This document shows positions 30,316 to 49,702 of a stretch of 64,000 bases of DNA, one piece after another. The position numbers and the translations under genes were made by a program. Origin of the DNA: Sphingopyxis sp. (GTDB taxonomy: Bacteria; Pseudomonadota; Alphaproteobacteria; Sphingomonadales; Sphingomonadaceae); the NCBI GenBank assembly GCA_016463225.1, contig JAEMRT010000003.1, positions 8,073 to 72,072 on the forward strand, read 5' to 3'. The notes below the pieces were generated by a model, which had not been told where the DNA came from, did not search any database, and saw only the letters and a list, made by a program, of their open reading frames with translations. Each line of letters opens with the position of its first letter. The first letter of the stretch is position 1.

Positions 30316-30624
30316 ACTTTGGGGCAGCCGACGTCTGTCCGGTATCGGCTAAATCTCGCCGTCAGATGTTATTTATCGTCTGTGCCACGCGCGATAGATT
30401 TGAAAGGGCGGCGGTACAGGCTGCCAGGGTTGGAAGCAGCGTCAGCCTGTTGAGGACAAAACAGCAGGGGCATAATCGAATGTGGAGTTTCGGCCACTTC
30501 GCGAGGAGAGAATACCCTAAAACCCGCTGAAATGATGACATTGTGAGACTGGCACGCCCTTTGCGTCACTGCCCCCGTCTGTCCCGCGTGATGCGGGTCG
30601 GTTCAGCGCTAAGGGGTAATCGCA
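30316..30624. other. Intergenic region with sigma54 promoter
   Basis: About 310 bases between the HEPN-like gene and the TonB receptor. The promoter is described separately; the roughly 230 bases before it would be where an enhancer-binding activator and a bending protein act. I see no clear repeated activator site. Confidence 0.5.
30550..30564 (+). promoter_or_regulatory. Sigma54 (-24/-12) promoter for the TonB receptor
   Basis: TGGCACGCCCTTTGC matches the consensus TGGCAC-N5-TTGC, with GG at 30551-30552, GC at 30563-30564 and exactly 10 bases between. The receptor starts at 30625, leaving a leader of about 50 bases. Confidence 0.8.
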
Positions 30625-32958
30625 GTGTTCGGGAAATCAGTGTCGTCGAAATCGCTTCGCTTAATCGGTGGCGGTGCTGCCGCGCTTTTTGCAGTGAGCC
30701 ATGCCTGTGCAGCGCATGCCAATGAGGATGCCGCGTCCGCGGCCGCTGAGGCTGCGTCCACCGAAGATGGTGATTCCGGCGGCGCGATCGTCGTCACCGC
30801 GCAGCGCCGCGAGGAAAGGCTGCAGGATGTGCCCGTCGCGGTCACCGCAATCGGCGAGGAGCAGTTCACCGTAGGCGGCCTCGGCCGGTCAGCCAACGAA
30901 GTGCTGAACCTCGTTCCCAACGCGTCGGCCGGCACGCAGCAACATGGCCGGCCCCGGTGGTGGATCCGCGGCGTCGGTGCAGGGCAGCAGCAGCTCGACT
31001 TGGCGAACCCAGTCGGCTTCTACCTTGACGATGTCTACATCAGTAACGCGAGCGCTACCGGCCTGCCGCTATTCGACGTCGAGCGTGTCGAGGTGCTACG
31101 CGGCCCGCAGGGCACGCTGTGGGGCAAGAATACGACTGGCGGCGCGATCAACGTCATCTCCAAGCGTCCTTCGCTGACTGGCGACGACGATAATTATGTG
31201 AAGCTCGAATATGGCACCTACGACAACAAGATCCTCGAGGCAGGGGTCGGCACGGCGATCGTCGAGGATCGGCTTGCCGCGCGCGTCTCGGCCCGCTTCG
31301 ATGATCGCGGCGGCCGGTTCGACAATCTCTTCACCGGCGAGAAATCCAATGCGGTCAAGGACGTCGTCGTGCGCGGGCAGTTGCTCGCGGCGCCGACCGA
31401 CAATTTCGAGGCCTTGCTGAGCGTCCATTACCGCGACTACGACACCGACGGCAGCTATTGGACGACCGCGAGCTATATCCCGAGCGGCGTCGTGCGAAAC
31501 GGCTATGCACCCTCGAGACGCATCAACGACATCAGCGCCAATGCGCCCGAATATGGGCGATCGAGCCAGCTTGGCGGATCGCTGCATCTCGACTGGGATT
31601 TCGGCGGCGTTACCCTGACCTCGATCACCGGCTATGAACGTTACAAGACGCGTGGAGCAGGGGAGAGCGATTATACGCCGCTCGAAATCTCGCGCAGCTA
31701 CAGCGAAGCGCGCTCGCGCCAGTGGAGCCAGGAACTGCGGCTGGCATCGCCGCAGGACGACCGCCTGACGTGGATCGTCGGGCTTTTCTATTTCAACGAA
31801 GACATCAATTCGAATGCTTTCTCGGCGACGCTGCCCCAGGGCTTGGTGCCGTCGCTGCCGGGCACTGCCCCCGCAGCGTTCAGCGATACGGCCTATAACC
31901 ACAAGGCCGAAAGCGGCGCGGTGTTCGGCAGCACGAGCTTCGCCTTCACCGACAGCGTCAAGCTGACGCTCGGCGGCCGCTGGAGCCGCGAGACGAAGGA
32001 AGTCGACTTCGTGCGCCGGGCGTCGCCCAACGCGGCCGGGGCCTCTTGGAGCAACCTTGCGCAGTGGTGGGATAGCTACACCGGCACCTATGGCGGACCC
32101 GGCACCTTCAGCAATTCGCTGAAGGAGACATGGGACGCCTTCACCTATGACATCACGCCATCGTGGAAGATCGCGCGCGATCATCTTCTCTATGCGAAAT
32201 TCTCGCATGGCGTAAAATCGGGCGGCTTCAACACGGCCGCGACGCTGGCGATAGCACTCACCGATGTCCGCCCCGAGAAGCTCGACGCATATGAGATTGG
32301 CTACAAGTCGAGCTGGTTCGACGGCCGGGTAGGCTTCAATGCCACCGCCTTCCATTATGATTATGACGATGTGCAGGTGAATGTCGTCGGTCCGAACCCT
32401 GGAGCGGTCGGCGGTGCGACAGTGTCCTATCTGCAGAATGCCGAAAAAGCCAAGGTCGACGGGGCGGAGTTCGAACTGACGCTTGAGCCGGTAGAAGGTC
32501 TGAATTTCAACGCGGCGCTCGGCCTGCTCGATACTGAATATACGCGGTTTCAGGTGCAAAACGGCGGCGCGAACCTCGCGGGTGCGCGGTTTGTTCGTGC
32601 GCCGAAGGTGACGTATAATTTCGGGGGCTCCTACAGCTTAGCACTCGGCAATATTGGCAAGCTCGAGCTGGCAGCAGATGCGCGGTATCAGTCGCGGCAA
32701 TTCTACTATGTGACGCCGCAGGACCCCGTAAACCGCTATTATCTGACGCAGAAGCCCTACACGATCACCAATCTTCGGGTCACTTATACGACGAAAGACG
32801 AGAATGTGAGCGTCACCGGCTTCATCAACAATCTGTTCGACGTGCGCTACCTCAACCACGCGCTGCCGGCGGCAAATGCCGCGCTCGGCGTGACGGGCGA
32901 CACGGTGGCCTGGGCCGAGCCACTGACCGCGGGCGCCGCGGTCGTATTCCGCTTCTGA
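30625..32958 (+). CDS. TonB-dependent outer-membrane receptor under sigma54 control
   Basis: The 777-aa protein has a signal peptide, a TonB-box-like segment (GGAIVVTAQRREERLQDVPV), a plug domain (RWWIRGVGAGQQQLDLANPV, VEVLRGPQGTLWGKNTTGGA) and a 22-strand barrel ending in AAVVFRF. Such receptors import substrates using TonB energy. The GTG start at 30625 has AAGGGG 8 bases before it. Its sigma54 promoter resembles those before the dszB-like genes, so import of an organosulfur compound is the likely role, by inference. Confidence 0.9.
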   Translation: MFGKSVSSKSLRLIGGGAAALFAVSHACAAHANEDAASAAAEAASTEDGDSGGAIVVTAQRREERLQDVPVAVTAIGEEQFTVGGLGRSANEVLNLVPNASAGTQQHGRPRWWIRGVGAGQQQLDLANPVGFYLDDVYISNASATGLPLFDVERVEVLRGPQGTLWGKNTTGGAINVISKRPSLTGDDDNYVKLEYGTYDNKILEAGVGTAIVEDRLAARVSARFDDRGGRFDNLFTGEKSNAVKDVVVRGQLLAAPTDNFEALLSVHYRDYDTDGSYWTTASYIPSGVVRNGYAPSRRINDISANAPEYGRSSQLGGSLHLDWDFGGVTLTSITGYERYKTRGAGESDYTPLEISRSYSEARSRQWSQELRLASPQDDRLTWIVGLFYFNEDINSNAFSATLPQGLVPSLPGTAPAAFSDTAYNHKAESGAVFGSTSFAFTDSVKLTLGGRWSRETKEVDFVRRASPNAAGASWSNLAQWWDSYTGTYGGPGTFSNSLKETWDAFTYDITPSWKIARDHLLYAKFSHGVKSGGFNTAATLAIALTDVRPEKLDAYEIGYKSSWFDGRVGFNATAFHYDYDDVQVNVVGPNPGAVGGATVSYLQNAEKAKVDGAEFELTLEPVEGLNFNAALGLLDTEYTRFQVQNGGANLAGARFVRAPKVTYNFGGSYSLALGNIGKLELAADARYQSRQFYYVTPQDPVNRYYLTQKPYTITNLRVTYTTKDENVSVTGFINNLFDVRYLNHALPAANAALGVTGDTVAWAEPLTAGAAVVFRF

Positions 32959-32992
32959 TCGGAAAACGCGCTTCCCGCTCATTCTGTAGGAG

Positions 32993-33039
32993 CTCGGCCG
33001 ACAGGCCGCTCGCAAGAGCGAGGCAGCCTGTCGGCCGAG
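32993..33039. terminator. Long hairpin after the TonB receptor gene
   Basis: CTCGGCCGACAGG (32993-33005) and CCTGTCGGCCGAG (33027-33039) pair perfectly over 13 bp, with a second small hairpin CGCTC-GCAA-GAGCG (33007-33020) in the loop. It lies 35 bases past the receptor stop, between convergent genes. There is no T-run, so it may be a Rho-linked or bidirectional structure rather than a classic terminator. Confidence 0.45.
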
Positions 33040-33228
33040 TAGCGGGCGAACATATTCGCCCGCCCCGATACGCTCACTCAAGATGCGGCGTGCCGGCGAG
33101 GATGAACGCTGTGGGCGCCGCGTGCGATCAGTTCGTCGAACTGCGACGCGCGTTGTTCGAAGCTGCCTGCGACGCCCAGCGCCGAATAGCGGCTACGGCA
33201 GGATCGAGCCGCTAGTGAATGGCGAGCG

Positions 33229-33837
33229 TCATGCAGCATTCCATTCTTCGGTGAAGGCCAGCGTTCCGAGCGTTCCGGCAAAAACGGTCTCGCTGAGCGG
33301 CCGGCGGCCGCTAGGCGCTTCAGCGGCATGAAATTGCGGATCGAGATCGGCGAGATCACCTTTGCGTCCGAGCGCGACAAAGGCCTCGATCTCATAATCG
33401 TAGGGAATGGCGAGCCGCGTGCGTGCCGCGGCGCGGTCGAAGCCGCCGATCCCGTGCGTGTGCCAACCGAGCAGCAACGCCTGATGCGCGAAGTTCGTCC
33501 AGGCTGCCCCGGCGTCGAAGCTGTGCGAGCTGTTATCGACGACCGTGCCTCCGCGTTCGAGTTGCCGCGCCGAGAGGATGAGAATCAGCGCCGAGGCACG
33601 CGCAGCCCACAGCCGGTTCTTTGCCATCAGCAGTTCAAGAAAGCCGTCCCACGCAGCATCGCCAGAGCGCGCGACGAGGAAGCGCCACGGCTGCGCGTTC
33701 GACGCCGAAGGTGCCCAGCGAGCCGCCTCGAACGCGCTTTGCAGCACGGCGTCGGGAACCGGCTCTCCGGTGAAGCTGCGCGGCGACCAACGAGTTGTGA
33801 AGATCGGATCGACGGGGTGATCGGAAATGCGGCTCAT
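33229..33837 (-). CDS. Nitroreductase-family flavoprotein
   Basis: The 202-aa protein has the nitroreductase fold: FTTRWSPRSFTGEPVPDAVL, then EAARWAPSASNAQPWRFLVA (FMN binding) and LGWHTHGIGGFD. These enzymes use NAD(P)H to reduce nitro compounds or free flavin. It is the last gene of the ABC transporter operon (1-base overlap with the ATPase gene). In this setting it could supply FMNH2 to the DszA-like monooxygenase at 42074, as separate flavin reductases do in Dsz and Ssu systems; this is inference. Confidence 0.82.
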   Translation of the reverse strand: MSRISDHPVDPIFTTRWSPRSFTGEPVPDAVLQSAFEAARWAPSASNAQPWRFLVARSGDAAWDGFLELLMAKNRLWAARASALILILSARQLERGGTVVDNSSHSFDAGAAWTNFAHQALLLGWHTHGIGGFDRAAARTRLAIPYDYEIEAFVALGRKGDLADLDPQFHAAEAPSGRRPLSETVFAGTLGTLAFTEEWNAA

Positions 33838-34691
33838 CAGCGGGCCTCCCGGTTTGGCAAGTGAACAAGGTTGTCCGCACCTGCGTCCGCGTCGGCGCCC
33901 GAGGTTAGCTCAGCGAGTATCTCGTCCTTTAGGCGGTGGAGGAGCGGCGAGCGCCGGTCGCGCGGGTGCGACAGATCGACATCGACGATGCGGCGGATCC
34001 GCCCCGGGTTGGGGGACATCACGATCACCCGGTCGCCCAGGTAGAGGGCTTCCTCGACATCATGCGTGACCATCAGCATTGTCGAGCGCTGGGTCATCCA
34101 AATGCGCTGGAGCTCGTTTTGGACATGAACGCGCGTCAGGGCGTCGAGCGCGCCCAGTGGCTCGTCGAGCAGCAGCAATCGGGGTTCGGTGACGAGCGCA
34201 CGTGCAATCGCCGCGCGCTGCGCCATGCCGCCCGACAGCTGGTGCGGATAGGCCTTCTCGAAACCGGTGAGGTTCACCAGCGCGATATGATCGGCGACGA
34301 TCTTCGCGCGCCGGTCTTTCGGCGTGTCGGTGTTGAGCAGCGCGAGCTCGACATTCTGTTCGAGCGTCATCCACGGAAACAGCCGGTGGTCCTGGAATAC
34401 GATGCCGCGATCGAGGCTTGTAGTCGCGATCCGTTCGCCGTCGAGGCGCAGTTCGCCGCCATAATCGGTGTCGAGTCCGACGATCAGGCGCAGCAGCGTC
34501 GACTTGCCGCAGCCCGATGCGCCGACGATGCTGACGAATTCGCCCGGCCGGACGTCGAGGTTGATATCGTCGAGGACCTTGTGCGGCCGGCCGCCGATCT
34601 GGAAACTCTTGTCCAGATCCCGGACGCTGAGCGCACCGCGTTGCAATGGCGCCAGGGGCTTGTCTTCGCGAGTTTGGGGATGGGCACTCAA
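33837..34691 (-). CDS. ABC transporter ATPase, sulfonate/nitrate/taurine type
   Basis: The 284-aa ATPase has Walker [10 protein letters not shown] (57-65), Q loop FQDHRLFPW, signature [16 protein letters not shown], Walker B LLLLDEP and switch His in [12 protein letters not shown], all typical of SsuB/TauB-like proteins. It energises the importer formed with the two permeases upstream. The operon order is binding lipoprotein, permease, permease, ATPase, nitroreductase. Confidence 0.92.
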
Positions 34692-34708
34692 GACGTGTCT
34701 CCTGATCG

Positions 34709-35476
34709 TTACGCCGAAGGCTGCCAGCGCAGCAATGACTGGCGGAGCTGGCGGAACAGCTGGTTGATTGTGAAGCCGAGCGTGGCGGTGACGCCGATGA
34801 TCACGAGCATGACGTCGAGCCGCTGCTGGACCTGGGCGAGCTGCATCGCAACGCCGAGGCCGGCATTTGCGCCGGTGAGCAATTCAGTCCCAATCGTGGC
34901 GATCCAGGCGAAAGCGAGCGCCTGCGTGATGCCGGTGAGGACGAGCGGCATCGCGCCCGGCAACAGGATGTGACGAATGCGCTGCGCAACCGAGAAGCGG
35001 AATATGCTTCCCACCTCGATGTAACGCCGTTCGACTTGGCCGACCCCGGCATGGCTGTTCAACATTGACGGGAAAAAAGAAGACATGCTGACGACCGCGA
35101 GTTCGGTCGTCGCGCCCATTCCGAACCACAGACCCATCAGCGGTAACCACCCAATCATCGGAACTTGTCGCAGCGCATGGAGGAGCGGGCCGACCAGCCG
35201 ATCAACTGGCTTCCATATGCCCGTCGCGACTCCGACCGCCACGCCTAGCGGCACGCCGATCGCTAGCCCAGTGAAGGCGCGCTCGAGCGTTGCGAGCGTG
35301 TCGCGCAGCAGGTCGCCGCTACGAACGAGTTCGAGCAGGGCGGTACCCACTGCAGCGGGTGGGGCAAAGCTGACGATATGGGCGTTTGTTTGCCATTGCC
35401 ACCAAGCGATCAGCAAGGCCGGCGCGATCAGTCCGATCGCGAAACGGATGGGCAGGTGCGAGAGCCAGCCAGTCAT
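34709..35476 (-). CDS. ABC transporter permease (second), sulfonate type
   Basis: The 255-aa inner-membrane protein has about six helices and the inner-membrane coupling motif (EVGSIFRFSVAQRIRHILLP, GAMPLVLTGITQALA) of the SsuC/TauC class. It overlaps the first permease by 4 bases (ATGA). The two permeases are related but not identical, so the channel is probably a heterodimer, whereas SsuC usually forms a homodimer. Confidence 0.9.
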   Translation of the reverse strand: MTGWLSHLPIRFAIGLIAPALLIAWWQWQTNAHIVSFAPPAAVGTALLELVRSGDLLRDTLATLERAFTGLAIGVPLGVAVGVATGIWKPVDRLVGPLLHALRQVPMIGWLPLMGLWFGMGATTELAVVSMSSFFPSMLNSHAGVGQVERRYIEVGSIFRFSVAQRIRHILLPGAMPLVLTGITQALAFAWIATIGTELLTGANAGLGVAMQLAQVQQRLDVMLVIIGVTATLGFTINQLFRQLRQSLLRWQPSA

Positions 35477-36279
35477 GCAGATTTCCAGCGCGTAGCGTGG
35501 CTCTCGACCCAGCGCGCGCCGCGGTCGAGGAAGAAGCCGACTAGGCCGGTAACGATAACCCCAGCCAGGACGACGTCGATCTGGAAGAGCTGGCGCCCCA
35601 TCTCCATCATCTGCCCGAGGCCGCTGTCAGCGGCGAGCAGCTCGGCCGCGACCAGCACCACCCAAGCTCGGGTCAGCGAAATCCGCAGGCCCGTCAGGAC
35701 CGCTGGCACCGTAGCCGGCAAAAGAATGTGGCGGATCAGTCGGAGCAGGCTGAGACGATAGACTTTCGCGACCTCGAACCAGCTTTTCGGCACGCCGCGA
35801 ATGCCGTCGAAGGTAGCGAGCGCCATTGGAAAGAAGGCGGCGATCGCTACGACTGCGAGCTTGAAGGGCTCGTCGATGCCAAGAAACATGACCATTATCG
35901 GCACGAACGCGATGACAGGAACCTGCCACAGCGCCAGGAACAGCGGCGACAGCACCGCCTCGGCGAGCCGGGAGAGCGCGATCGTTGCGCCGAAGGCCAT
36001 TCCGGCGAAGGCGCCGATCGCGAAACCGAGCAATAGTCGACGCAAGCTGTCGCCGAGGTGCCGCTGAAGCTCGCCCGTCAGCGCCATCTCCTGGAGTGTT
36101 CGTGCGACCGCGCTCGGCGCGACCAATACCTGTGGCGGGAATACGCCGGTGAGACAAAGGAGTTGCCAGAGTCCTATCAGCAGCAATGGCGCCACGAGGG
36201 CGTCAACGGAAAGGCGATCGAGACGGAGGCTCGAAGACGGGCGGACCGGAGGCTGCCCACCGAGAGGCCAGCTCGCCAT
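35473..36279 (-). CDS. ABC transporter permease (first), sulfonate type
   Basis: The 268-aa membrane protein has the SsuC-type layout: LLLIGLWQLLCLTGVFPP, LLLGFAIGAFAGMAFG, ALWQVPVIAFVPIMVM, FFPMALATFDGIRGVP and the coupling loop VYRLSLLRLIRHILLPATVP. Its start overlaps the stop of the binding-protein gene by 1 base. Confidence 0.9.
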   Translation of the reverse strand: MASWPLGGQPPVRPSSSLRLDRLSVDALVAPLLLIGLWQLLCLTGVFPPQVLVAPSAVARTLQEMALTGELQRHLGDSLRRLLLGFAIGAFAGMAFGATIALSRLAEAVLSPLFLALWQVPVIAFVPIMVMFLGIDEPFKLAVVAIAAFFPMALATFDGIRGVPKSWFEVAKVYRLSLLRLIRHILLPATVPAVLTGLRISLTRAWVVLVAAELLAADSGLGQMMEMGRQLFQIDVVLAGVIVTGLVGFFLDRGARWVESHATRWKSA

Positions 36280-37388
36280 TACCCAGCACCCTCCACCGGC
36301 TGGGCCCAGAAATCATCCAGCTTCAGATCGGTCAGCGCCTTGGCGACGAAGCGATCATCGAACAGCGCGTCTGCATCAATCTTGCTCCGGATCAACCCGC
36401 GCCTGAACGCGTAGTCGGCGACCGAGTGATAATGGGTACGCAGCGCCGGGCTGTAAAGCGGTGAGAAGCGTTCGCGCCAGGGAATGCTGGAGTCGGCATA
36501 ATCCTTCTCGATGATTTCGACCGGCAGCGCGCCGCGCGCGGCATTGCGGATGACAGCCGCCTTGTTGGCCTCCTCCGACGACCATGCGCCGGCACGGACG
36601 AAGGCTTCGACGACAAGCTGGGTCAGTTCGGGATGGGCATCGACGAAATCTTTACGAGCGAACAATTCGGCACGCATCTTCCAGTCGGCCGGCGCCTCGC
36701 GCGTTGACCAGAGCACGCGGGCGATGCCGTTTTGCTCGACGAGCAGGCCGTCAGACAGAAGGACGGCGGCATCGACGCTTCCCGATTCCAATGCTGCGGG
36801 CGTCGCCGCCGGATTGATGTTGACGATCTTGAAGTCTTCGAGCTTAAGCCCCTTGCTGTCGACGAGCTTGGAAAAGGGCAGCTCCCATGGCCGGCCGCGG
36901 TGGAGCGCGATCCGCTTGCCCTTGAGATCGGCGAGGCTCTTCGCCGCCAACCCCTTGCGCACCACTAAATAGACGTCCTGACCCTGGCCCACCGGCGCGA
37001 CGATTTTGAGCGGCACGCCGCCGGCGACGGCTATCGTCGCTGGGAAGTCGCCATAAGAAGCGAAATCGATGCGCTTGCCCGAAAAACCTTCATTGATGAC
37101 GGGTGCGCCGACGGCTGTCGACACGGGCGTGAAGACGAGCTCGATACCTTTCTTGGCGAGCTGGTCCCTGAGCCAGCCTTGTTCGGCGACCACGCCGTTC
37201 AGCCCGGCGAAGACCTGCTTGCCCTGATAGGGATAAGCAATCGATGCTATCGTTACCGTCGAGACTTTGTCGCCGGCATCCTTGGCCGATCCGCAACTCG
37301 CGAGCATAGCGCCCGCAAAGACTGCGATTGCGGCGGCGCGCCAATTCCGGGTGAAACGGAAAATTGCTGACCTGCTGCTCTGTATCAC
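36279..37388 (-). CDS. ABC transporter substrate-binding lipoprotein (sulfonate type)
   Basis: The 369-aa protein has a lipoprotein signal peptide with LASC lipobox and an SsuA-like fold: INEGFSGKRIDFASYGDFPA, LVVRKGLAAKSLADLKGKRI, INPAATPAALESGSVDAAV. It would catch an aliphatic or aromatic sulfur ester or similar anion in the periplasm. A GTG start at 37388 is chosen because GGGAG lies 7 bases before it and the signal peptide begins there. First gene of its operon, with a likely sigma54 promoter at 37439-37453. Confidence 0.88.
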   Translation of the reverse strand: MIQSSRSAIFRFTRNWRAAAIAVFAGAMLASCGSAKDAGDKVSTVTIASIAYPYQGKQVFAGLNGVVAEQGWLRDQLAKKGIELVFTPVSTAVGAPVINEGFSGKRIDFASYGDFPATIAVAGGVPLKIVAPVGQGQDVYLVVRKGLAAKSLADLKGKRIALHRGRPWELPFSKLVDSKGLKLEDFKIVNINPAATPAALESGSVDAAVLLSDGLLVEQNGIARVLWSTREAPADWKMRAELFARKDFVDAHPELTQLVVEAFVRAGAWSSEEANKAAVIRNAARGALPVEIIEKDYADSSIPWRERFSPLYSPALRTHYHSVADYAFRRGLIRSKIDADALFDDRFVAKALTDLKLDDFWAQPVEGAG

Positions 37389-37438
37389 TGAAAGGCTCCC
37401 TGTTCCCGGCCGGTTTCGAAAAGCTCTCGCTCCATCAT

Positions 37439-37453
37439 GCATGGCCTGTGCCA
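37439..37453 (-). promoter_or_regulatory. Sigma54 promoter for the ABC transporter operon
   Basis: On the minus strand TGGCACAGGCCATGC gives GG and GC with exactly 10 bases between. The -12 side is ATGC instead of TTGC, so it is weaker than the others. Transcription would start about 40 bases before the GTG at 37388. Confidence 0.55.
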
Positions 37454-37619
37454 ACCGCCGGATCGGCGCGCTCGCGCCGGGCACCCCATGCGGGTGTGTG
37501 CGGGGTTGCTGATTTTGACGCAGTTTGCTCGGGCGAATTGCGCGAAATGAAGCGGCCCGGCGTGAGGCATCGAGCGCGAAAGGCAGAAATATGCCGGGTC
37601 GACGTTCGGTCCCTGTATC

Positions 37620-37634
37620 TGGCACGGGCTTTGC
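37620..37634 (+). promoter_or_regulatory. Sigma54 promoter for the first dszB-like gene
   Basis: TGGCACGGGCTTTGC has GG at 37621-37622 and GC at 37633-37634, with the correct 10-base gap and full consensus bases. The gene starts at 37723, so the leader is about 75 bases. Confidence 0.8.
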
Positions 37635-37722
37635 GAAAGAGCGGAATGAACGCCGCATAAGGACCGGTTTCGGCTAGTGCTGCTGCGGAGTGGCAGCTAT
37701 TCGGACATGAGAGGGAGGTTGG

Positions 37723-38775
37723 ATGCCGAAAGGAAAGGCTTCGAGCGCAGCGCCGATCGGATTGGACAAGCTCTGGGTCACGCGCTGCCCCGTGCCGGCG
37801 GCGTCGAGTATCGCATGGGCCAAGGGATGGATGGCGGATGCTTTCGCTCCGGACGGCATCGCCGTGGGGCGCGTACAGGAGCAGGGGCTGAACCTGGTCC
37901 AGGGCGATCCCGAGAACCAAGTGCGTCACCTGTTTCGCGAGGGCGGGAACATCCAGGCTCTCGCCGCGCGCGCGCTCGGCGCGCCGACCCGCGTCATCGG
38001 CCTGACCTGGATCGACGAACGGCAGGCGATCATGGTGCGGCGCGATGCCGCCATTCTGGATCCGGCCGATCTCAAGGGGCTGCGCTTCGCGCTTCCCGGT
38101 TACGCGCGCTCGCGCGGAGAGAGCATCGCCCGCGGCATGGCGCTCCATGGTATAAAGAGTGCTCTGGCACTCGGCGGGCTCACCCTCGACGACGCCCGCT
38201 TCGTCGAGATCCCGGCGCCGCCCGTCGAACAGGCGAGCGCGGAAGGCATGCGCCGGCTTTGGCTCGGCCTCGAATGGCTTGCCACCGGCCGTGTCGATGC
38301 GGTCTATGTAAAAGGTGCCGCTGCGGCCGAGGCCGCCCACCGCTTAGGGCTCGAAATCGGTATCGACCTCGATGCCTATCCGAGCCGCCTTGCGCGCGTG
38401 AACAATGGCACGCCGCGCCCGATCGTCGTGCATCAGCATATGATAGATCACCATCCCGAGCTGGTCGAACGCTTCCTCGAGCAAAGCCTCCGCGCAGCAG
38501 ACTGGGCCGCGCGCAATCTGCCGGAAGTTAAGGCGATCGTTGCAAACGAGACCCTGGCCGGGATCGACGGCGTTGAGACGGCCTACCGGAACAATTTCCA
38601 TCGCTCGCTTCATCCGGACCTGTCGGACGAGCGGATCCAGATGCTCAAGATCCAGGCCGATTTCCTCTGGCTGCACGGCTTTCTCGAATCGCCTGTCGCC
38701 ATCGATGACTGGATATGTGCCGGTCCGCTCGAAGCCGTGCTCGAACGGCGGGCAGCCGCCCTTCCGTCACTCTGA
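37723..38775 (+). CDS. DszB-like protein 1 (catalytic His replaced by Asp)
   Basis: The 350-aa protein belongs to the periplasmic-binding-protein-like family that contains the desulfinase DszB. It has no signal peptide, so it should stay in the cytoplasm. Cys22 lies in TRCPVPAA at the DszB Cys27 position, and Arg72 in FREGGN matches Arg70. The residue 10 before that Arg, His60 in DszB, is Asp62 here. If the alignment holds, desulfinase activity may be lost or altered, and the protein could be a ligand sensor or have another substrate. It has its own sigma54 promoter and lies alone before the activator gene. Confidence 0.75.
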   Translation: MPKGKASSAAPIGLDKLWVTRCPVPAASSIAWAKGWMADAFAPDGIAVGRVQEQGLNLVQGDPENQVRHLFREGGNIQALAARALGAPTRVIGLTWIDERQAIMVRRDAAILDPADLKGLRFALPGYARSRGESIARGMALHGIKSALALGGLTLDDARFVEIPAPPVEQASAEGMRRLWLGLEWLATGRVDAVYVKGAAAAEAAHRLGLEIGIDLDAYPSRLARVNNGTPRPIVVHQHMIDHHPELVERFLEQSLRAADWAARNLPEVKAIVANETLAGIDGVETAYRNNFHRSLHPDLSDERIQMLKIQADFLWLHGFLESPVAIDDWICAGPLEAVLERRAAALPSL

Positions 38776-38815
38776 TCATCCCGTTGAAAGCTCAGCTAGC
38801 CGCAGGAATTTAAAT

Positions 38816-38832
38816 TCTACTAAATTAGATGA
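38816..38832. promoter_or_regulatory. Dyad motif TCTACTAAATTAGATGA, candidate operator
   Basis: This differs from the motif at 19095-19111 at one central base and keeps the symmetry TCnnCTAAnTTAGnnGA. A second palindrome, GAATTTAAATTC, sits at 38806-38817. It lies about 50 bases before the activator gene, where a repressor or activator could set its level. The binding protein is unknown. Confidence 0.5.
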
Positions 38833-38882
38833 CAATTCCCTGTTATGGGTTGAGGCCCTCGAGAGCGAGGTACGGAGGGCGC

Positions 38883-39986
38883 ATGACAATCACCTCATCG
38901 GAGCGGGCCGCGCATGTAGCGGATGTGGGGCTTATGTCGGCCGTGAAGGGCGACGGTCCGCCGCTCCTCGCCTATGATTGCGAATCTCACCATGCCGTCG
39001 GCCCGCGCGCTCGCGCGCTCATCTTCAACGACCCGCGCTCGCGGGCGCTGCTCCCGCTGATCGCACGCGTGGCGCCGAGCGAGGCCCATGTGCTGATTAT
39101 GGGCGAGACCGGGACCGGCAAGGAACTGGTCGCTCGCTATGTCCACAGTCTGAGCAGCCGCGCCGATACGCCTTTTGTCGCCGTCAACTGCGGCGCCTTT
39201 TCCGAATCGATGATCGAGGGCGAGCTGTTCGGATATGAAAAGGGGGCCTTCACTGGCGCCGCCGTCGCGCGCCCGGGCTGGTTCGAAGCGGCCAACGGCG
39301 GCACCCTGTTCCTCGACGAGCTTGGCGACTTGCCTTTGGCTCTGCAGGTGAAGTTGCTGCGGGTTCTCCAAGAGCGTGAAGTAGTTCGGCTCGGATCGCG
39401 CAAGGCCGTAGCGCTTGACGTACGGGTTATCGCCGCGACCAACGTCGAGCTCCAGCAGGCGGTGAAAGAAGGCCGGTTCCGGTCCGATCTCTATTACCGA
39501 TTGCAGGTCGTCCCCATTTCGCTGCTGCCGCTGCGCGAACGGCGCGCCGACATTCTGCCGCTCGCTCGCCATTTTCTCGAAGTCTATGGCGCACGCGTGC
39601 GTGCCAATCGTCTTGAGCTCAGCGTTGCCGCTGAAGAGGCGCTGTTTCAGCATGACTGGCCCGGCAATATTCGCGAACTCGAGAATGCCATCCACCGCGG
39701 CACGCTGGTTTGCGAGGACGGGCGCATCTCTCCTGCGCATCTCGGTCTCGACGATGCGGACAGCGAGGTGGTACAGAGCGGTGCAGACTCGTTCGAGGAT
39801 GCGGTCCGGCCCTTTGTCCGAAATTTGATTAAGGCCGATCACGCAAACCTGCTCGACCGGCTGGTCGCCTTCACGGTCACCGAGGCGTTCCGGCAATCCA
39901 ATCAGAACCAGATCAAGACCGCCGAGGCGTTGGGCGTGACGCGCAACGTCGTGCGCACGCACCTTAAAAATCTCGGCATGATCTGA
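38883..39986 (+). CDS. Sigma54-dependent activator without sensor domain (SfnR-like)
   Basis: The 367-aa bacterial enhancer-binding protein has the AAA+ domain from about residue 45: Walker A GETGTGKE (74-81), sigma54 loop GAFTGA (121-126), Walker B TLFLDE, arginine fingers in FRSDLYYRL, and a C-terminal Fis-like HTH (IKTAEALGVTRNVVRTHL). It lacks a regulatory N-terminal domain, like SfnR of Pseudomonas, which controls dimethyl sulfone use. It therefore is probably controlled by its own level. An upstream ATG at 38829 lies in the dyad motif; 38883 is preferred, with GGAGGG before it. Confidence 0.92.
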   Translation: MTITSSERAAHVADVGLMSAVKGDGPPLLAYDCESHHAVGPRARALIFNDPRSRALLPLIARVAPSEAHVLIMGETGTGKELVARYVHSLSSRADTPFVAVNCGAFSESMIEGELFGYEKGAFTGAAVARPGWFEAANGGTLFLDELGDLPLALQVKLLRVLQEREVVRLGSRKAVALDVRVIAATNVELQQAVKEGRFRSDLYYRLQVVPISLLPLRERRADILPLARHFLEVYGARVRANRLELSVAAEEALFQHDWPGNIRELENAIHRGTLVCEDGRISPAHLGLDDADSEVVQSGADSFEDAVRPFVRNLIKADHANLLDRLVAFTVTEAFRQSNQNQIKTAEALGVTRNVVRTHLKNLGMI

Positions 39987-39988
39987 CA

Positions 39989-40050
39989 CTGCCCGCGAGC
40001 CACGGCTGCAAATCCAACAGGGAAGCTGTTCAATATGCCGCAGCGGGCAG
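39989..40050. promoter_or_regulatory. Inverted pair CTGCCCGC / GCGGGCAG upstream of a sigma54 promoter
   Basis: CTGCCCGC (39989-39996) and GCGGGCAG (40043-40050) are exact inverted copies 46 bases apart, 46-107 bases before the -24/-12 element at 40096. They could be activator sites or the arms of a terminator for the preceding gene. Confidence 0.3.
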
Positions 40051-40095
40051 ACAAGCGTTCCACCGGAAATCCCGTATTTTAGCCGATTTTTCGAC

Positions 40096-40110
40096 TGGCA
40101 CAGCTTTTGC
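40096..40110 (+). promoter_or_regulatory. Sigma54 promoter for the dszB2-aldolase-dszA-dszB3 operon
   Basis: TGGCACAGCTTTTGC has GG at 40097-40098 and GC at 40109-40110, with 10 bases between and all consensus positions present. The first gene starts at 40150, giving a leader of about 30 bases. Confidence 0.8.
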
Positions 40111-40149
40111 TCATTACCGGACATGAAATGAGCCGGGAGCTGCCGATCC

Positions 40150-41268
40150 GTGTCGACCCTGTTGAAATCCGATCAAGCTGCGGCGGCGCTTCCGCAAGAA
40201 ATCTGGTTCACTCGCTGCCCGGTCCCGACCGCGACCGGGATCGCCTACAAGCTCGGCTGGCTGACCGAGGCCTTCGAGGAAGACGGGATTGCACTGCGCA
40301 CGCTCCAAGAATCTGGATCCGAACTCGGCCGCCACCATTATGATCACCGCCTGCCGACGCTGATCCGTGAAGGCGGCAACATGCTCGCCATTGCGGCGCG
40401 TGCGCAGGGCGAACCAACGAAACTCGTCGGGTTGACCTGGATCGAGGAAAGCCAACTGATCCTAACCCGGCCCGGGTCGGGCATCGCGTCTGCCGCCGAC
40501 CTCGCGGGCAAACGTCTCGCGCTTCCGGGTTGGAGTCATAACGATATTCCGAGCCATGTGCGGGGCACCAGCATTGCGCGCGGGATGTCGCTCGCGGGCT
40601 ATAGAGGCGTTCTGGCGTCTGCCGGGCTGACACTCGACGATGTGACTTTGGTCGAGACACCCGACCGGCTGCGCAATGTCGGCGGCGTGGGCCGCGACTT
40701 GCTGCAGCACGGCGAGAGGCGCCGTAGCGACCTCGGTCGCCTGTGGCCGATCGAGGCGCTCGACGATGGCCGGGTCGATGCCGTCTATGTCAAGGGTGCC
40801 GCCGCGCTCGATCAGGCGCGCGAGGCGGGGCTCGTCGTCGCGATCGACATCGATGCACTGCCTGACCGGCGCTATCGTGTGAATAACGGCACCCCGCGTC
40901 CCATCACGGTCCATCAAAGCCTAATCGACGATCATTTCGACCTGCTGGTCCGCTTTCTCGGCGTCACGTTGCGCGCGGCGGACTGGATTGCGGCGCAGCC
41001 GAACCGCCTGCGCAACATCTTGGAGCATGAGACCCAAGGCAGCGCCGGCGCCGTCGACCAAGCCTATGCGCGGCTCCACGAAGGCCTGCATCCTAAGCTC
41101 GACGACGAGCGGCTGGCCCTATTCGATCAGCAGAAGCGGTTCCTGTTCATGCACGGCTTCCTCGATGCCGATTTCGAGCTCGCCGACTGGGTCGATCCCC
41201 GGCCCCTGGAGGCCGCCTACTTTTCGAACGCTGAACGCAATCCCAACCTTTCAACCGGAGGAAATTGA
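40150..41268 (+). CDS. DszB-like desulfinase 2
   Basis: The 372-aa protein has no signal peptide and matches DszB (2'-hydroxybiphenyl-2-sulfinate desulfinase) at the catalytic positions: Cys23 in TRCPVPTA, His63 in RHHYDHR and Arg73 in IREGGN, with the same 10-residue gap from His to Arg. Two-lobe binding-protein segments follow (TWIEESQLILTRPGSG, DLAGKRLALPGW, GRVDAVYVKGAAAL, VNNGTPRP). It would release sulfite from an organic sulfinate in the cytoplasm. GTG start with GGGAG upstream. First gene of a sigma54-driven operon. Confidence 0.78.
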   Translation: MSTLLKSDQAAAALPQEIWFTRCPVPTATGIAYKLGWLTEAFEEDGIALRTLQESGSELGRHHYDHRLPTLIREGGNMLAIAARAQGEPTKLVGLTWIEESQLILTRPGSGIASAADLAGKRLALPGWSHNDIPSHVRGTSIARGMSLAGYRGVLASAGLTLDDVTLVETPDRLRNVGGVGRDLLQHGERRRSDLGRLWPIEALDDGRVDAVYVKGAAALDQAREAGLVVAIDIDALPDRRYRVNNGTPRPITVHQSLIDDHFDLLVRFLGVTLRAADWIAAQPNRLRNILEHETQGSAGAVDQAYARLHEGLHPKLDDERLALFDQQKRFLFMHGFLDADFELADWVDPRPLEAAYFSNAERNPNLSTGGN

Positions 41269-41270
41269 AC

Positions 41271-42017
41271 ATGTCTGATACAAACGGCCTGTCCGCGGAG
41301 GCGATCGCCTTCATAACGCAGGCAAGCGACGACGCGCGCCGCGCCTTCCGCCTGCTGCGTGAGAGCCGCACCGTCTCGGCGAGCGGCACGCTGGGCTTCG
41401 CCGTGCGGATTCCGGGCGAGGAGAAGATCGCGACGCTGAGCTATGTTGGCCTCTGGGAAGATGACCCCGACAAACCGCGCGTCAGCGTTATCGATTTCGA
41501 GGGCAACCGCTTGTGGGGCGCGGCGACGGGGGGCGAGGCTCGCTACCTCAAGATCTTCAAGAAGTATCCCGACTTCAAGGCAATTAGTCATATCCACACG
41601 CCGCACCTTGGCGCTTATTCGCAGGCGCACGAAGAATTGCCTTTGCTCTATGTGCCGAACCGCCGCTTCCGCTTCACCGCGAAGCTCCCCGTCTATATCA
41701 ACCGGCGGCAGGGCGAGCCCGATTTCATCCTCGAAGCGATCGAGCAGGACCGTGACGTACCCGGCATCATCGAGGCCAATGGCGGCGCGACGATCTGGAG
41801 TTGGAAGGGCATTCGCGATCTTGCCGAGACGATAGTGCTGCTCGAGGAAGGTGCACAGTTCCAGATACTCTCCGCGGCGCTCGGCGGCTCGCAGCCTTTC
41901 GGTCCCGGTGTGCTCGAGCAGCAATGGAAAATGGGCAAGCTCGTCGCCCCCGATGCCCGTGTCGACGACGACGGCACAATCCATCTGCCCGAAGAGGCCG
42001 TCCAAGCGGCCGAATAA
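41271..42017 (+). CDS. Class II aldolase/adducin-family protein
   Basis: The 248-aa protein has the zinc-aldolase fold with metal-ligand candidates in SHIHTPHLGAYSQAHEELP, and TVSASGTLGFAVRIPGEEK near the N-terminus. Members act as aldolases, epimerases or decarboxylases. It starts 2 bases after the dszB-like gene 2 stop, with GGAGG in front, and sits before the dszA-like gene. Its presence suggests that the substrate after desulfurisation, or its side chain, is cleaved further, which is not part of the classic dibenzothiophene pathway. Confidence 0.82.
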   Translation: MSDTNGLSAEAIAFITQASDDARRAFRLLRESRTVSASGTLGFAVRIPGEEKIATLSYVGLWEDDPDKPRVSVIDFEGNRLWGAATGGEARYLKIFKKYPDFKAISHIHTPHLGAYSQAHEELPLLYVPNRRFRFTAKLPVYINRRQGEPDFILEAIEQDRDVPGIIEANGGATIWSWKGIRDLAETIVLLEEGAQFQILSAALGGSQPFGPGVLEQQWKMGKLVAPDARVDDDGTIHLPEEAVQAAE

Positions 42018-42073
42018 ATCCCGGCGCCCCGTCGCGGGCGCCGCATCTTCCCCAAAATTTCGGAGCGATCCTC

Positions 42074-43435
42074 ATGAGCCGCAACAAACGCCAACTCGCA
42101 CTGGCTGTATTCCTCACCCGGCATGGCCATCACCCCGGCGCCTGGCGCCAGCCGGGCACCGCAAGCACCGGCAAGCCCGATTTCCGCTATTGGGCCGACC
42201 TCGTCCGCACTGCCGAGCGCGGCAAGCTCGATGCGGCGTTCTTCGCCGACTTCGTCGGCCAGAGCGGCGACAGCACCAAGGGGATCGAGCGGCGGCATGC
42301 CTTCCTCGATTTCGAACCGCTCACGGCGATCGCTGCGCTCGCGAGCATCACCAGCCACATCGGGCTGGTCGCGACAGTGAACACCAATTTCGAACAGCCC
42401 TATGCGCTCGCGCGGCGTTTTGCCTCGCTTGATCATATCAGCGGCGGCCGCACCGGGTGGAACATCGTTTCCTCGCTCGCCGATGGCGCGGCGAAAAGCT
42501 TCGGGATCGACCAGCCTGCTACCCATGCCGAACGCTATGCGCGGGCGCATGATTTCACCGAGCTTGCAAAGGCTCTGTGGAACAGCTGGGAAGACGACGC
42601 CTTCGACACCGCCGACAAGGACAGCGGCGTCTATCTCAACGCCGACGCGGTCCATCCCGTTCACTATCGCGGACCCTATTATCACATCGACTCGATCCTC
42701 GACATGCCGCGCCCGATCCAGGGCTATCCGGTCTTCGCGCAGGCAGGCAATTCCGAGGTCGGACGCGACTTCGCCGCGCGCCACGCCGAAATGATCTACG
42801 CCGCCGCGCAGTTCATCGAGGACGCGCAGGCCTTCTATAAGGATGTGAAGGATCGTGTTGCCGGTTACGGCCGCGATCCCGACACGCTGAAGGTGATGCC
42901 CGGTCTCTCCTACACCATCGGGTCGAGTCTGCAGGAAGCCCAAGACAAGTTCGGCGCGCTCGAAGAGAAAGTCGACTTCGGGGGCGACCTTAACCTCATG
43001 GGCCAGGATGTGAGCGCCTATCCGCTCGACGGACCGCTGCCGGATCTGCCCGAGCCCGAAAATGGCAAGGGGCGCTGGCGCCAGCTCACCGCGCTTGCGC
43101 GGCGCGAAAATCTGACCATCCGCCAGCTCTTCCTGCGTTTCAACGCGGTTCGCGGTCACCGCGTGGTGCTCGGCACGCCGACCGACATCGCCGACCAGAT
43201 CCAAGACTGGTTCGAGCGCGACGCCGCCGACGGGTTCAACCTGATCCCGCCGCTGCTACCGAGCTCACTCGAGGATTTCGTTGACCTCGTGGTTCCCGAG
43301 TTGCAGCGCCGCGGACTGTTCCGCACCGAATATGAAGGCACGACGCTGCGCGAGCATTTGGGGCTGCCGCGCCCGGTCAATCCTAATGCGCGCGCGGACA
43401 CATCGCCCGCGCCGGTCCTCGAATCCGCCGACTAA
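42074..43435 (+). CDS. DszA/NtaA/SnaA-family flavin-dependent monooxygenase
   Basis: The 453-aa luciferase-like TIM barrel has family signatures: HPGAWRQPGTAS, RTAERGKLDAAFFADFVG, SLDHISGGRTGWNIVSSL, YHIDSILDMPRPIQGYPVF and QAGNSEVGRDFAARHAEM. Members use reduced FMN from a partner reductase to oxidise nitrilotriacetate, pristinamycin or aryl sulfones (DszA). Between two dszB-like genes, sulfone-to-sulfinate cleavage is the most likely role, but the substrate is unknown. Length matches DszA. Confidence 0.85.
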   Translation: MSRNKRQLALAVFLTRHGHHPGAWRQPGTASTGKPDFRYWADLVRTAERGKLDAAFFADFVGQSGDSTKGIERRHAFLDFEPLTAIAALASITSHIGLVATVNTNFEQPYALARRFASLDHISGGRTGWNIVSSLADGAAKSFGIDQPATHAERYARAHDFTELAKALWNSWEDDAFDTADKDSGVYLNADAVHPVHYRGPYYHIDSILDMPRPIQGYPVFAQAGNSEVGRDFAARHAEMIYAAAQFIEDAQAFYKDVKDRVAGYGRDPDTLKVMPGLSYTIGSSLQEAQDKFGALEEKVDFGGDLNLMGQDVSAYPLDGPLPDLPEPENGKGRWRQLTALARRENLTIRQLFLRFNAVRGHRVVLGTPTDIADQIQDWFERDAADGFNLIPPLLPSSLEDFVDLVVPELQRRGLFRTEYEGTTLREHLGLPRPVNPNARADTSPAPVLESAD

Positions 43436-43459
43436 CTTTTCGTTTGAAGGGGAATTTCC

Positions 43460-44518
43460 TTGGCCCAGAAACTCGACACGCTCTGGTATACCCGCTGCCC
43501 GGTCCCGACCGGGCTCGGCATCGCGCTGCAGCAGGGATGGCTGGAACAGGCCTTCGCCGAGCAGGGGACGAGCCTCTCTTCGCTGCTCGAATCGAACGAT
43601 TTCGCCAAGCGGGAATCGCATTTCTCGCACACGGTGCAGAATTCGGTTCGCCATGGCGGCAACATCCCCGCGATCAGCGCGAAGGCGCGCGGGCGCAATA
43701 CGCGCGTTATCGGCCTGTCCTGGGCCGATGAAACCCAGCTGATCCTTGCGAGTCCGGAATCGGGTATCACCTCGGTCCGCGACCTGAAGGGCCGGCGCTT
43801 CGGCTTGCCCAACTGGAAGAATGTCGAGATCGACTTCACACGGGCGCAGGCGATTCGCGGCCTCGAGAACGCTCTGCGGCTCGAGGGGCTCGAAGTGTCT
43901 GACGTCGAGATCTTGGACCAGGATATCGACACGCACTACAGCGACGGGCAGGCCGAAAATGTCGGCGGCACGCTCGCTTGGAACGGCCGCAGCACGACCC
44001 GCGCTCGCGCAAATAATCTGGAACTGATCGCGCTGTTGCGCGGCGAAGTCGATGCGATATTCCTCAAAGGCGCGTCGGGCGCACAGATCGCGCACCAGTT
44101 CGGGCTGACGACGGTGATCGACACCGGCATTCATCCCGACCCGCTCGTGCGGGCGAATAATGGTACGCCGCGGACGCTCGCGGTCGACGGGCATCTCCTC
44201 GACAACCATTTCGACGCCGCGGTCACCATCGTCGAACAGGTGCTACGCGCCGAAGCCTGGGCGCAGGCGCACCCCTCCGAAGTTCGCCGTTATCTCGCGC
44301 GTGAGACCAACAGCAGCGAGTATTGGGTGGGCATAGCCTATGGCGAAGACGCGCAAAAACGGCTGAGGACCGATCTTTCCGAACAATCGATCGCCGGTAT
44401 CCAAAATTTCACCGATTTCCTGCACCGCTGGCACTTCATTCCTGAAAGCTTCGACGTGCGCCAGTGGATCGATCTGCGGCCGCTGGATGCCGCGCACGCC
44501 TTGCCCCTTGCTGTCTGA
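43460..44518 (+). CDS. DszB-like desulfinase 3
   Basis: The 352-aa protein, without signal peptide, keeps the DszB catalytic residues: Cys13 in TRCPVPTG, His54 in ESHFSH and Arg64 in VRHGGN, with the 10-residue His-Arg gap; HF right at the His matches DszB locally. Further segments are SWADETQLILASPESG, DLKGRRFGLPNW and GEVDAIFLKGASGA. The start is TTG with AAGGGGA 7 bases before it. It follows dszA by 24 bases and ends the operon, so it is the best candidate for the desulfinase partner of the monooxygenase. Confidence 0.8.
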   Translation: MAQKLDTLWYTRCPVPTGLGIALQQGWLEQAFAEQGTSLSSLLESNDFAKRESHFSHTVQNSVRHGGNIPAISAKARGRNTRVIGLSWADETQLILASPESGITSVRDLKGRRFGLPNWKNVEIDFTRAQAIRGLENALRLEGLEVSDVEILDQDIDTHYSDGQAENVGGTLAWNGRSTTRARANNLELIALLRGEVDAIFLKGASGAQIAHQFGLTTVIDTGIHPDPLVRANNGTPRTLAVDGHLLDNHFDAAVTIVEQVLRAEAWAQAHPSEVRRYLARETNSSEYWVGIAYGEDAQKRLRTDLSEQSIAGIQNFTDFLHRWHFIPESFDVRQWIDLRPLDAAHALPLAV

Positions 44519-44537
44519 GCGGACCGGCGCGCCGCTC
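44517..44537. terminator. Hairpin between convergent genes
   Basis: GAGCGG (44517-44522) pairs with CCGCTC (44532-44537) around nine bases, right at the stop of dszB-like 3. No T-run; a weak end point for convergent transcription. Confidence 0.35.
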
Positions 44538-45135: not shown

Positions 45136-45201
45136 GTCCATCTCCCTATATTGCGGCGGTTTGGCATGGAGCTCTTGGAGCCCCATGCCAATTCCCGGCC
45201 A

Positions 45202-47742: not shown

Positions 47743-47829
47743 GAAAACGGCCCCTTGATTATATTGCGTACGGTGGCCTCTCCGATCGCGGGTCATGTCT
47801 GCGCATGGCTCCGAAACTGGTAGAATCTG

Positions 47830-49443: not shown

Positions 49444-49702
49444 ATTGCCCCCTGTGCAATGTGTCGTCGCTCCCCCATCGTTAGCCGCTTCAGTTGTCCG
49501 CGCGGCCTTTGGTCTAAATCACTTGTTCCAAATCGTTCCTGCAAACATACGTCTTGTCGTAAATTTGAAAATTTGAGCGCAGGTGCCTCGGGCCGCGGAA
49601 GGGGGCGCTGGGCTATTCCCATCGCAGTCGCCTACTCGGCGTGCCCCGCGTCAGGCCTGTTGCCGTCTGAGCTGACAGCAGGGCTGCCTTATGGCCCGAG
49701 CG

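Follow-up and report, generated by a model that had tools for sequence, protein, structure and literature searches.

A candidate sigma54-controlled organosulfur island in Sphingopyxis sp. with two predicted DszB-type desulfinases and a third DszB-like protein altered at the active site

A 64-kb stretch of contig JAEMRT010000003.1 (here C208) of the Sphingopyxis sp. assembly GCA_016463225.1, the whole of which is referred to as the window, was analyzed in this study for the region 30550–44518, which carries a gene cluster well supported as an organosulfur island. An earlier note on this DNA had listed here a DszA/NtaA-family monooxygenase, three cytoplasmic DszB-like proteins, a class II aldolase, a sulfonate-type ATP-binding cassette (ABC) importer, a nitroreductase, a TonB receptor and a sensor-less sigma54 activator, and every named gene was recovered at its place and in its Pfam family. 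The features of the region are as follows; mismatches are counted against the promoter pattern TGGYAC-N5-TTGCW.

30550–30565, plus strand: sigma54-type −24/−12 site ahead of the TonB receptor gene (TGGCACGCCCTTTGCG, 1 mismatch)
30625–32958, plus strand: TonB-dependent outer-membrane receptor (PF00593, E = 6e-39; PF07715, E = 1.8e-16)
33117–33182, minus strand: what remains (22 codons) of a gene for an SsuD-like monooxygenase (tblastn, 64% over 22 aa, E = 2.5e-7)
33229–33837, minus strand: nitroreductase-family protein (PF00881, E = 9.6e-21)
33837–34691, minus strand: ATPase of a sulfonate/nitrate-type ABC importer (PF00005, E = 6.4e-33; SaoA, NrtCD and TauB models under their cut-offs)
34709–35476, minus strand: ABC importer permease 2 (PF00528, E = 2.1e-18)
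35473–36279, minus strand: ABC importer permease 1 (PF00528, E = 4.2e-24; SsuC model, E = 1.2e-43, under its cut-off)
36279–37388, minus strand: SsuA-type substrate-binding lipoprotein (best solved match SsuA 3uif, E = 4.6e-87; TIGR01728, E = 4.5e-35, under its cut-off)
37438–37453, minus strand: sigma54-type site ahead of the importer operon (TGGCACAGGCCATGCA, 1 mismatch)
37620–37635, plus strand: sigma54-type site ahead of DszB1 (1 mismatch)
37723–38775, plus strand: DszB1, DszB-like, with Cys27 and Arg70 and with Asp replacing His60; candidate pseudo-desulfinase
38883–39986, plus strand: sensor-less sigma54 activator (enhancer-binding protein) with GAFTGA (PF00158, E = 1.4e-69)
40096–40111, plus strand: sigma54-type site ahead of the DszB2–aldolase–monooxygenase–DszB3 operon (TGGCACAGCTTTTGCT, 0 mismatches)
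40150–41268, plus strand: DszB2, desulfinase candidate with intact Cys27/His60/Arg70/Gly73 (alignment to DszB)
41265–42017, plus strand: class II aldolase/adducin-fold protein without the third metal-binding His (PF00596, E = 1.1e-11; alignment; model)
42074–43435, plus strand: NtaA/DmoA-family monooxygenase dependent on flavin mononucleotide (FMN), kin to CmoJ/YtnJ, DszA and DmoA (TIGR03860)
43460–44518, plus strand: DszB3, desulfinase candidate with intact Cys27/His60/Arg70/Gly73 (alignment to DszB)

The assembly (5.6 Mb in 239 contigs, estimated contamination 7.17%) contains a second and fuller copy of the island on contig C237 (L012:2144–19998), whose encoded proteins are 87–97% identical to those of the window copy, with 99% for the TonB receptor over the 215 residues compared. 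When window positions 24001–52000 were compared with C237:1–40000 at the nucleotide level, homology covered 30546–33184 and 33196–44532 and ended there, with only short matches between DszB paralogues elsewhere; it starts at the first −24/−12 site and ends just past DszB3, and the limits drawn in the earlier note coincide with these ends. At 33184/33196 the C237 alignment jumps from 19093 to 17182. Two SsuD-like monooxygenase genes, intact in C237 and in Sphingobium sp. TomTYG65, are missing from the window at this point, and what is left of one SsuD-like gene, together with the deletion junction, occupies 33117–33196 between the nitroreductase and TonB genes. In C237 and TomTYG65, DszB3 is followed by two ABC exporter genes; these too are missing from the window copy, which, having neither them nor more than a remnant of the SsuD-like genes, reads as a reduced form of the island. 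The closest named relative of both copies on the DszB tree is Sphingopyxis panaciterrae (L048). Next to the island, at 44635–51322, are minus-strand genes for a RidA-family protein, a TonB receptor, a flavin amine oxidase and an M20-type amidohydrolase; this segment has no nucleotide match in C237:1–40000.

Comparison with other sphingomonad clusters revealed that the gene order recurs. Thirteen of the 20 sphingomonad loci among the 79 described below have it in full, with nitroreductase, ATPase, two permeases and binding protein running divergently from DszB1, activator, DszB2, aldolase-fold gene, monooxygenase and DszB3; it is partial in L045 and L046 and differs in L065, L068, L072, L075 and L076. 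The order in TomTYG65 is that of the window apart from the two inserted SsuD-like genes. A profile search of genome contigs with the aldolase-fold protein yielded 98 relatives, and the best 80 of these were kept, representing 79 distinct loci, each with at most 10 kb on either side of the aldolase-fold gene. These loci come from sphingomonads, Asticcacaulis, Niveispirillum and other Rhodospirillales, Burkholderiales, Jeongeupia, many Pseudomonas, Acinetobacter and one Streptomyces. A DszB-like open reading frame (ORF) lies nearby in 77 of the 79, the exceptions being L064, which ends 0.8 kb past the gene, and L087, which is 3.8 kb long. One copy was counted in 14 loci, two in 42 and three in 21, and these counts are lower bounds; in G086 and G291, for instance, a second copy sits outside the flank that was included. 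A group of ORFs of the SsuD monooxygenase type is represented in 73 of the 79 loci and one of the SfnB type in eight, both groups being typed by their representatives only; the neighbor clustering contains many shadow ORFs, and only representatives typed by Pfam or NCBIfam were used. Among 397 genomes sampled from the family, the aldolase-fold gene gave 11 matches, nine of them strong (E ≤ 5.8e-64), and DszB was found in 12 genomes, including all nine with a strong aldolase-fold match. Among 385 genomes sampled from the class there were six aldolase-fold matches, three of them strong, with the window's own included. The island is accessory and patchy in its distribution.

Six sites with at most one mismatch to the promoter pattern are present in the 64-kb window, four of them directly upstream of cluster transcription units; at up to two mismatches the window contains 44 sites, compared with 31.7 expected. 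Conservation was assessed in 15 sphingomonad loci with a window-type cluster, whole or partial, using the pattern TGGCAC-N5-TTGCW. With up to two mismatches, a site precedes DszB1 in 13 of 14 orthologues, DszB2 in 15 of 15 and the TonB gene in one of two; 5.0% of 5000 random 220-bp stretches from the same loci carry such a site. At the same threshold none was found upstream of the nitroreductase (0/13), the ATPase or permease 2 (0/14 each), or the aldolase-fold gene, the monooxygenase or DszB3 (0/15 each). A single RpoN gene is present in the assembly. Together, the four promoter-type sites, their conservation in orthologues and the presence of RpoN support the sigma54 control that the earlier note had suggested, and its view that the genes form one functional organosulfur unit under this control agrees with the boundaries, the recurring gene order and the conserved promoters.

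The activator itself, when its start is placed at 38883 by the ribosome-binding site, has about 46 residues ahead of the AAA+ domain, which leaves no room for a sensor domain, so that its description as sensor-less holds. The exact GAFTGA string, present in the window activator, is found in 35 of 45 relatives. An AAA+ domain with GAFTGA and no N-terminal sensor domain is the layout that we take SfnR itself to have, and the window activator resembles it. SfnR is placed with the msu genes and cited as CysB-regulated and sigma54-dependent in PMC8234197. A count of inverted repeats in 40 promoter-upstream stretches returned weak candidates. AACAG-N5-CTGTT, found in three of the 40 (the commonest repeat in shuffled sequences occurred once or twice), is not claimed as a shared activator-binding site; it occurs at 40016–40030, about 65 bases before the site at 40096, and upstream of DszB2 in L048 and L043, and the copy at 40016–40030 is a possible binding site for the activator. 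Commoner GC-rich repeats fall, at least in part, inside the conserved end of the activator gene.

The three DszB-like proteins have the NMT1/SsuA fold according to Pfam, and no signal peptide was seen when their N-termini were inspected by eye, without a predictor. By sequence, all three match DszB (2de2) best among solved structures, with E-values of 2.3e-11 for DszB1, 7.6e-12 for DszB2 and 4.8e-11 for DszB3, and the group profile matched DszB at E = 1e-36 compared with E = 0.009 for the periplasmic SsuA of E. coli; the same profile also hit two annexin chains at about 1e-4, without any stretch that passes. DszB was likewise the top Foldseek match by E-value (3.7e-21 versus 2.1e-15 for SsuA) of an AlphaFold model of DszB1 with a mean predicted local distance difference test score (pLDDT) of 88.5. 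On the tree, seven importer binding proteins form a group of their own with 100% support in the Shimodaira–Hasegawa-like approximate likelihood ratio test (SH-aLRT), and they have other residues at positions 27, 60 and 70. DszB2 and DszB3 both carry Cys27, His60, Arg70 (in RxGG) and Gly73 (CHRG), and DszB1 does not have the full set. The family and the cytosolic location proposed in the earlier note for all three proteins thus stand, and its picture of three equivalent enzymes does not, given that DszB1 is without His60.

In DszB, the C27S substitution kills activity and H60Q lowers it about 17-fold, S25 forms a hydrogen bond with H60, H60 stabilizes the ionized Cys27, and R70 lies in the RxGG motif, as described in PMC6100217. 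Written as residues 27, 60, 70 and 73, the 15 aligned DszB1 orthologues (a set that takes in the window and C237 copies and leaves out a partial DszB1-like ORF of L056) read CDRG in 13 cases and SDRG in two, so that Asp60 is present in all. Misalignment at His60 was considered as an explanation; DszB1 has a DPxxQ-like motif where intact copies mostly have HxxH, and there is no other conserved His in that place. Among 161 DszB-like ORFs in the 79 loci, 105 have Cys27, His60 and Arg70 and 56 are degenerate (residues 27, 60 and 70), comprising sphingomonad DszB1 (11 CDR and 2 SDR), 23 SHR from Pseudomonas and Stutzerimonas, 15 SIR from Burkholderia and Paraburkholderia, 2 SQF, 2 PHR and 1 CYR; the window and C237 copies of DszB1 are CDR as well. 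Both kinds of copy occur in 51 loci, complete copies only in 23, degenerate copies only in three and neither in two. In a tree of 181 rows built by a quick method, 59 rows are degenerate and group into four separate clades, and the starred branches alone need at least four changes of state, therefore four losses unless lost residues have been regained.

Arg70 is retained in 54 of the 56 degenerate ORFs and Gly73 in all 56, which points to removal of the chemistry with the binding residues mostly kept. Seventy-one alignment columns are conserved in 90% or more of the complete copies. At these, the fixed changes of DszB1 are T31A and H60D, with two further partial changes; T25A, C27S and H60I, all at the active site, are fixed in the Burkholderia SIR clade, also with two partial ones; and R26H, C27S and W41R are fixed in the Pseudomonas SHR clade, with six partial ones. 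The ratio of nonsynonymous to synonymous substitution rates (dN/dS, NG86) between the window DszB1 and its orthologues in L012, L048, L043 and L051 is 0.06, 0.03, 0.09 and 0.18, rough values given that dS exceeds 1 in two of the four comparisons; they lie in the range of DszB2, DszB3 and other genes, and decay of DszB1 as a pseudogene was rejected on these values. A permease ORF lies within 1.5 kb of 47 of 50 measurable degenerate copies and of 17 of 87 complete ones. Tandem-pair loci in genomes drawn by phylum combine SHR with CHR in four of four cases, and five of five further DszB1 copies in the family sample are CDR, several being non-independent as they come from the same species as named loci. 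All other copies examined in these samples are intact (G086, G124, G128, G150, G198, G291, G902 and G1029). Seven plasmid loci (four rhizobial and one each from Variovorax, Paraburkholderia and Streptomyces) have intact copies wherever the site is covered, and no match to the aldolase-fold or activator gene was found in them. Among the papers listed, a literature search with most subscription journals outside its reach showed none on this cluster or on DszB paralogues without Cys27, and a term search of PMC13352529 returned nothing on DszB.

The protein listed in the earlier note as a class II aldolase has the fold (PF00596 in 30 of 30 family members tested) but not the canonical residues, so it need not be an aldolase. 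HxH is present in 79 of 79 members, one of the two search patterns itself having demanded it. At the position of (S/N)HG in the aligned solved class II aldolases, every one of the 79 reads EANGG, so that the third metal-binding His is missing; the acidic catalytic residue is also unconserved in the subfamily, as judged by eye from the alignment. Both positions have a catalytic role in FucA and AraD; assignment as a classic class II aldolase is doubted. In the model (mean pLDDT 90.9) the fold is again that of class II aldolases; 1jdi is the top match, and the matches include L-ribulose-5-phosphate 4-epimerase, a decarboxylase, pyruvic oxime dioxygenase and NovR; a non-aldolase reaction is possible because kin of the same fold include oxygenases (the latter two). 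The tie to DszB is the strongest clue to its reaction. A second, more divergent member of this fold lies nearby in seven loci, with ESNGG in six of them.

The monooxygenase scored 523.6 bits against TIGR03860 (cut-off 279.7), which places it in the NtaA/SnaA/DszA/DmoA family as the earlier note had it. Pairwise scores, taken without a tree, were 303 bits for YtnJ, 300 for 7e36, 285 for 3sdo and 282 for DszA (5tlc), so that it is not closer to DszA than to CmoJ/YtnJ, and the plain DszA label and DszA specificity were set aside. The closest solved relative, YtnJ/MoxC, is the enzyme that we take to be CmoJ. Dibenzothiophene-sulfone chemistry should not be assumed because YtnJ, 3sdo and DszA are about equally close; CmoJ, DszA, DmoA and SsuD all cleave C–S bonds according to PMC8234197 and PMC10863075. 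The importer genes form one operon with an SsuA-family lipoprotein, two permeases and an ATPase, as expected of a sulfonate ABC importer, and all matches to NCBIfam models were under their cut-offs. For the lipoprotein, the GTG start at 37388 was set by eye from the ribosome-binding site, and the lipobox LASC was also recognized by eye. The nitroreductase-family protein is a candidate FMN reductase for the monooxygenase.

Taken together, we consider with a probability of roughly 0.6 that the cluster is a sulfur-scavenging island in which DszB2 and DszB3 are predicted desulfinases and DszB1 is kept as a binding protein or partner. An organosulfur compound would enter via the TonB receptor and the SsuABC-type importer, and the FMN monooxygenase, supplied with FMNH2 by the nitroreductase-family protein, would cut a C–S bond to yield a sulfinate, from which DszB2 and DszB3 would release sulfite, while the aldolase-fold protein might act on the carbon part. 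The sensor-less activator would turn on the TonB, importer, DszB1 and DszB2 units upon sulfur need. DszB1 is predicted to bind substrate and no longer to desulfinate efficiently, and its retention would reflect a role in the cytosol, as a binding protein or a partner subunit, most likely in connection with the adjoining importer. We propose that such a pseudo-desulfinase binds substrate to control import or transcription, or else acts as the partner of an enzyme. A bolder generalization, in which a desulfinase repeatedly became a cytosolic sulfinate/sulfonate receptor that senses substrate and gates the importer or the sensor-less sigma54 activator, is offered as a tentative idea that may well turn out otherwise.

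Several observations weigh against this interpretation. On the regulatory side, the importer binding protein has an upstream site in seven of 14 orthologues at one mismatch and in the same number at two, the activator gene in none of 14 at one mismatch and one of 14 at two, and permease 1 in two of 14 at two mismatches. Over the fold, identity to DszB is no more than about 24%, a level that does not specify the substrate. The window DszB1 still has Cys27, on account of which weak or altered catalysis is possible, and the two SQF rows (L079 and L091) have lost Arg70 too. The tree came from a quick run with several long branches flagged, the DszB1 clade included, and three lineages account for most of the locus counts, which are non-independent. 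A degenerate copy is not obligatory, as shown by the 23 loci with complete copies only, and the aldolase-bearing genomes G086, G124 and G291 carry at least two intact copies. In five Pseudomonas loci the nearest listed neighbor of the degenerate copy is a TonB gene, and in the Streptomyces locus L008 the only copy, an intact one, adjoins an SsuABC-like operon, so that an importer alone does not imply a degenerate copy. The window copy, minus two SsuD-like and two ABC exporter genes, may also be a reduced or redundant version.

It is unlikely, though a serious contender, that each of the three DszB-like proteins is an active desulfinase with a substrate of its own and that Asp60 marks a change in specificity. 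The window DszB1 keeps Cys27 and Arg70 and is under strong purifying selection, and DszB with H60Q retains some activity (PMC6100217); against this, a carboxylate should oppose the stabilization of ionized Cys27 that the same source ascribes to His60, and Cys27 itself is gone in two of 15 DszB1 orthologues and in other clades (23 SHR and 15 SIR rows). A degenerate DszB might instead be a prozyme-like partner that activates an intact DszB in a hetero-oligomer, an arrangement for which catalytically dead, partner-activating paralogues known elsewhere provide a precedent and with which the tandem, same-strand SHR and CHR genes of Pseudomonas-type loci agree. We regard it as improbable, however: in Sphingomonadales and Burkholderia the degenerate gene is with or divergent to the importer operon, and it lies on the strand opposite the intact copy or has the activator gene in between, while four rhizobial loci pair two DszB-like genes with every covered site intact, showing that pairing alone occurs without loss.

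That the DszB-like proteins are former periplasmic binding proteins without an enzymatic role that have shed their signal peptide, the outcome against which the earlier note had asked its proposal to be checked, is hard to credit and was rejected on sequence. The SsuA/NMT1 fold is common to both families, and the template-modeling (TM) scores of the DszB1 model do not separate them (0.70 for DszB, 0.71 for SsuA 3uif), so that structure alone is undecided; by contrast, DszB is the best sequence match, the importer proteins stand apart on the tree and differ at positions 27, 60 and 70, and DszB2 and DszB3 have all three residues. An island serving a purpose other than sulfur, such as detoxification or the utilization of nitrogen or iron compounds, with the monooxygenase, nitroreductase and TonB receptor as its core, is also very unlikely. 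The NtaA/DmoA family does include nitrilotriacetate and EDTA monooxygenases, and nitroreductase and TonB genes are not specific to sulfur, but the importer binding protein is of the SsuA type and the DszB-like, SsuD-type and SfnB-type groups all belong to organosulfur families. The sulfur-scavenging interpretation with a retained, binding DszB1 is the one preferred here.

DszB is known mainly from one industrial pathway, fuel desulfurization. The clusters described here suggest that the natural setting of DszB-type proteins is broad: such clusters are fed by importers, are often sigma54-linked, include an aldolase-fold partner and occur in Sphingomonadales, Caulobacterales, Rhodospirillales, Burkholderiales and Pseudomonas. 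That a paralogue is retained, mostly beside importer genes, and has repeatedly lost the same catalytic residues would surprise a specialist, and it allows one to test directly by what means sensor-less sigma54 activators or sulfonate importers might detect the contents of the cell.

Among known systems, the island shares with dszABC of the 4S pathway in Rhodococcus and Gordonia the DszB-family Cys27/His60/Arg70 and an FMN monooxygenase of the DszA/NtaA family. It differs in having three DszB-like genes (one degenerate), a TonB receptor, an ABC importer, an aldolase-fold gene and a sigma54 activator, its monooxygenase is not specifically DszA, and no DszC-type enzyme was found among the cluster ORFs scanned with Pfam. 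Rhizobial plasmids including pSymA (L124 4696–12162, L125 4746–12099 and L010) carry a dszABC-like set, in which two DszB-like genes are joined by an acyl-CoA dehydrogenase-family gene and by genes for an NtaA/DmoA monooxygenase and an ABC importer of the peptide type; the second of the DszB-like genes is broken across two reading frames in L010. Sulfur-scavenging FMN monooxygenases under a sigma54 activator are also a feature of the sfn/msu genes of Pseudomonas with SfnR (PMC8234197), in which sulfinate is oxidized to sulfonate before cleavage (MsuC, MsuD), whereas DszB-type desulfination is predicted for the island. The SsuA/TauA-type importer is shared with ssuEADCB and tauABCD, but the window copy has only an SsuD remnant, with DszB and aldolase-fold genes in place. 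The CmoO/CmoJ salvage of S-alkylcysteine in Bacillus includes the closest solved monooxygenase, YtnJ/MoxC; the island has one luciferase-like monooxygenase only, and neither an acetyltransferase nor a deacetylase was seen among the cluster ORFs scanned with Pfam. Finally, the cyanobacterial importers CmpC and NrtC have a cytosolic NrtA-like domain thought to be solute-binding and regulatory (PMC11349869), and CmpC domains (9uak and 9uai) are among the fold matches of the DszB1 model. That domain is fused to the ATPase, whereas DszB1 is a separate, DszB-derived protein, and it is by analogy only that we propose that DszB1 may gate the importer as the cytosolic domain of CmpC is thought to do.

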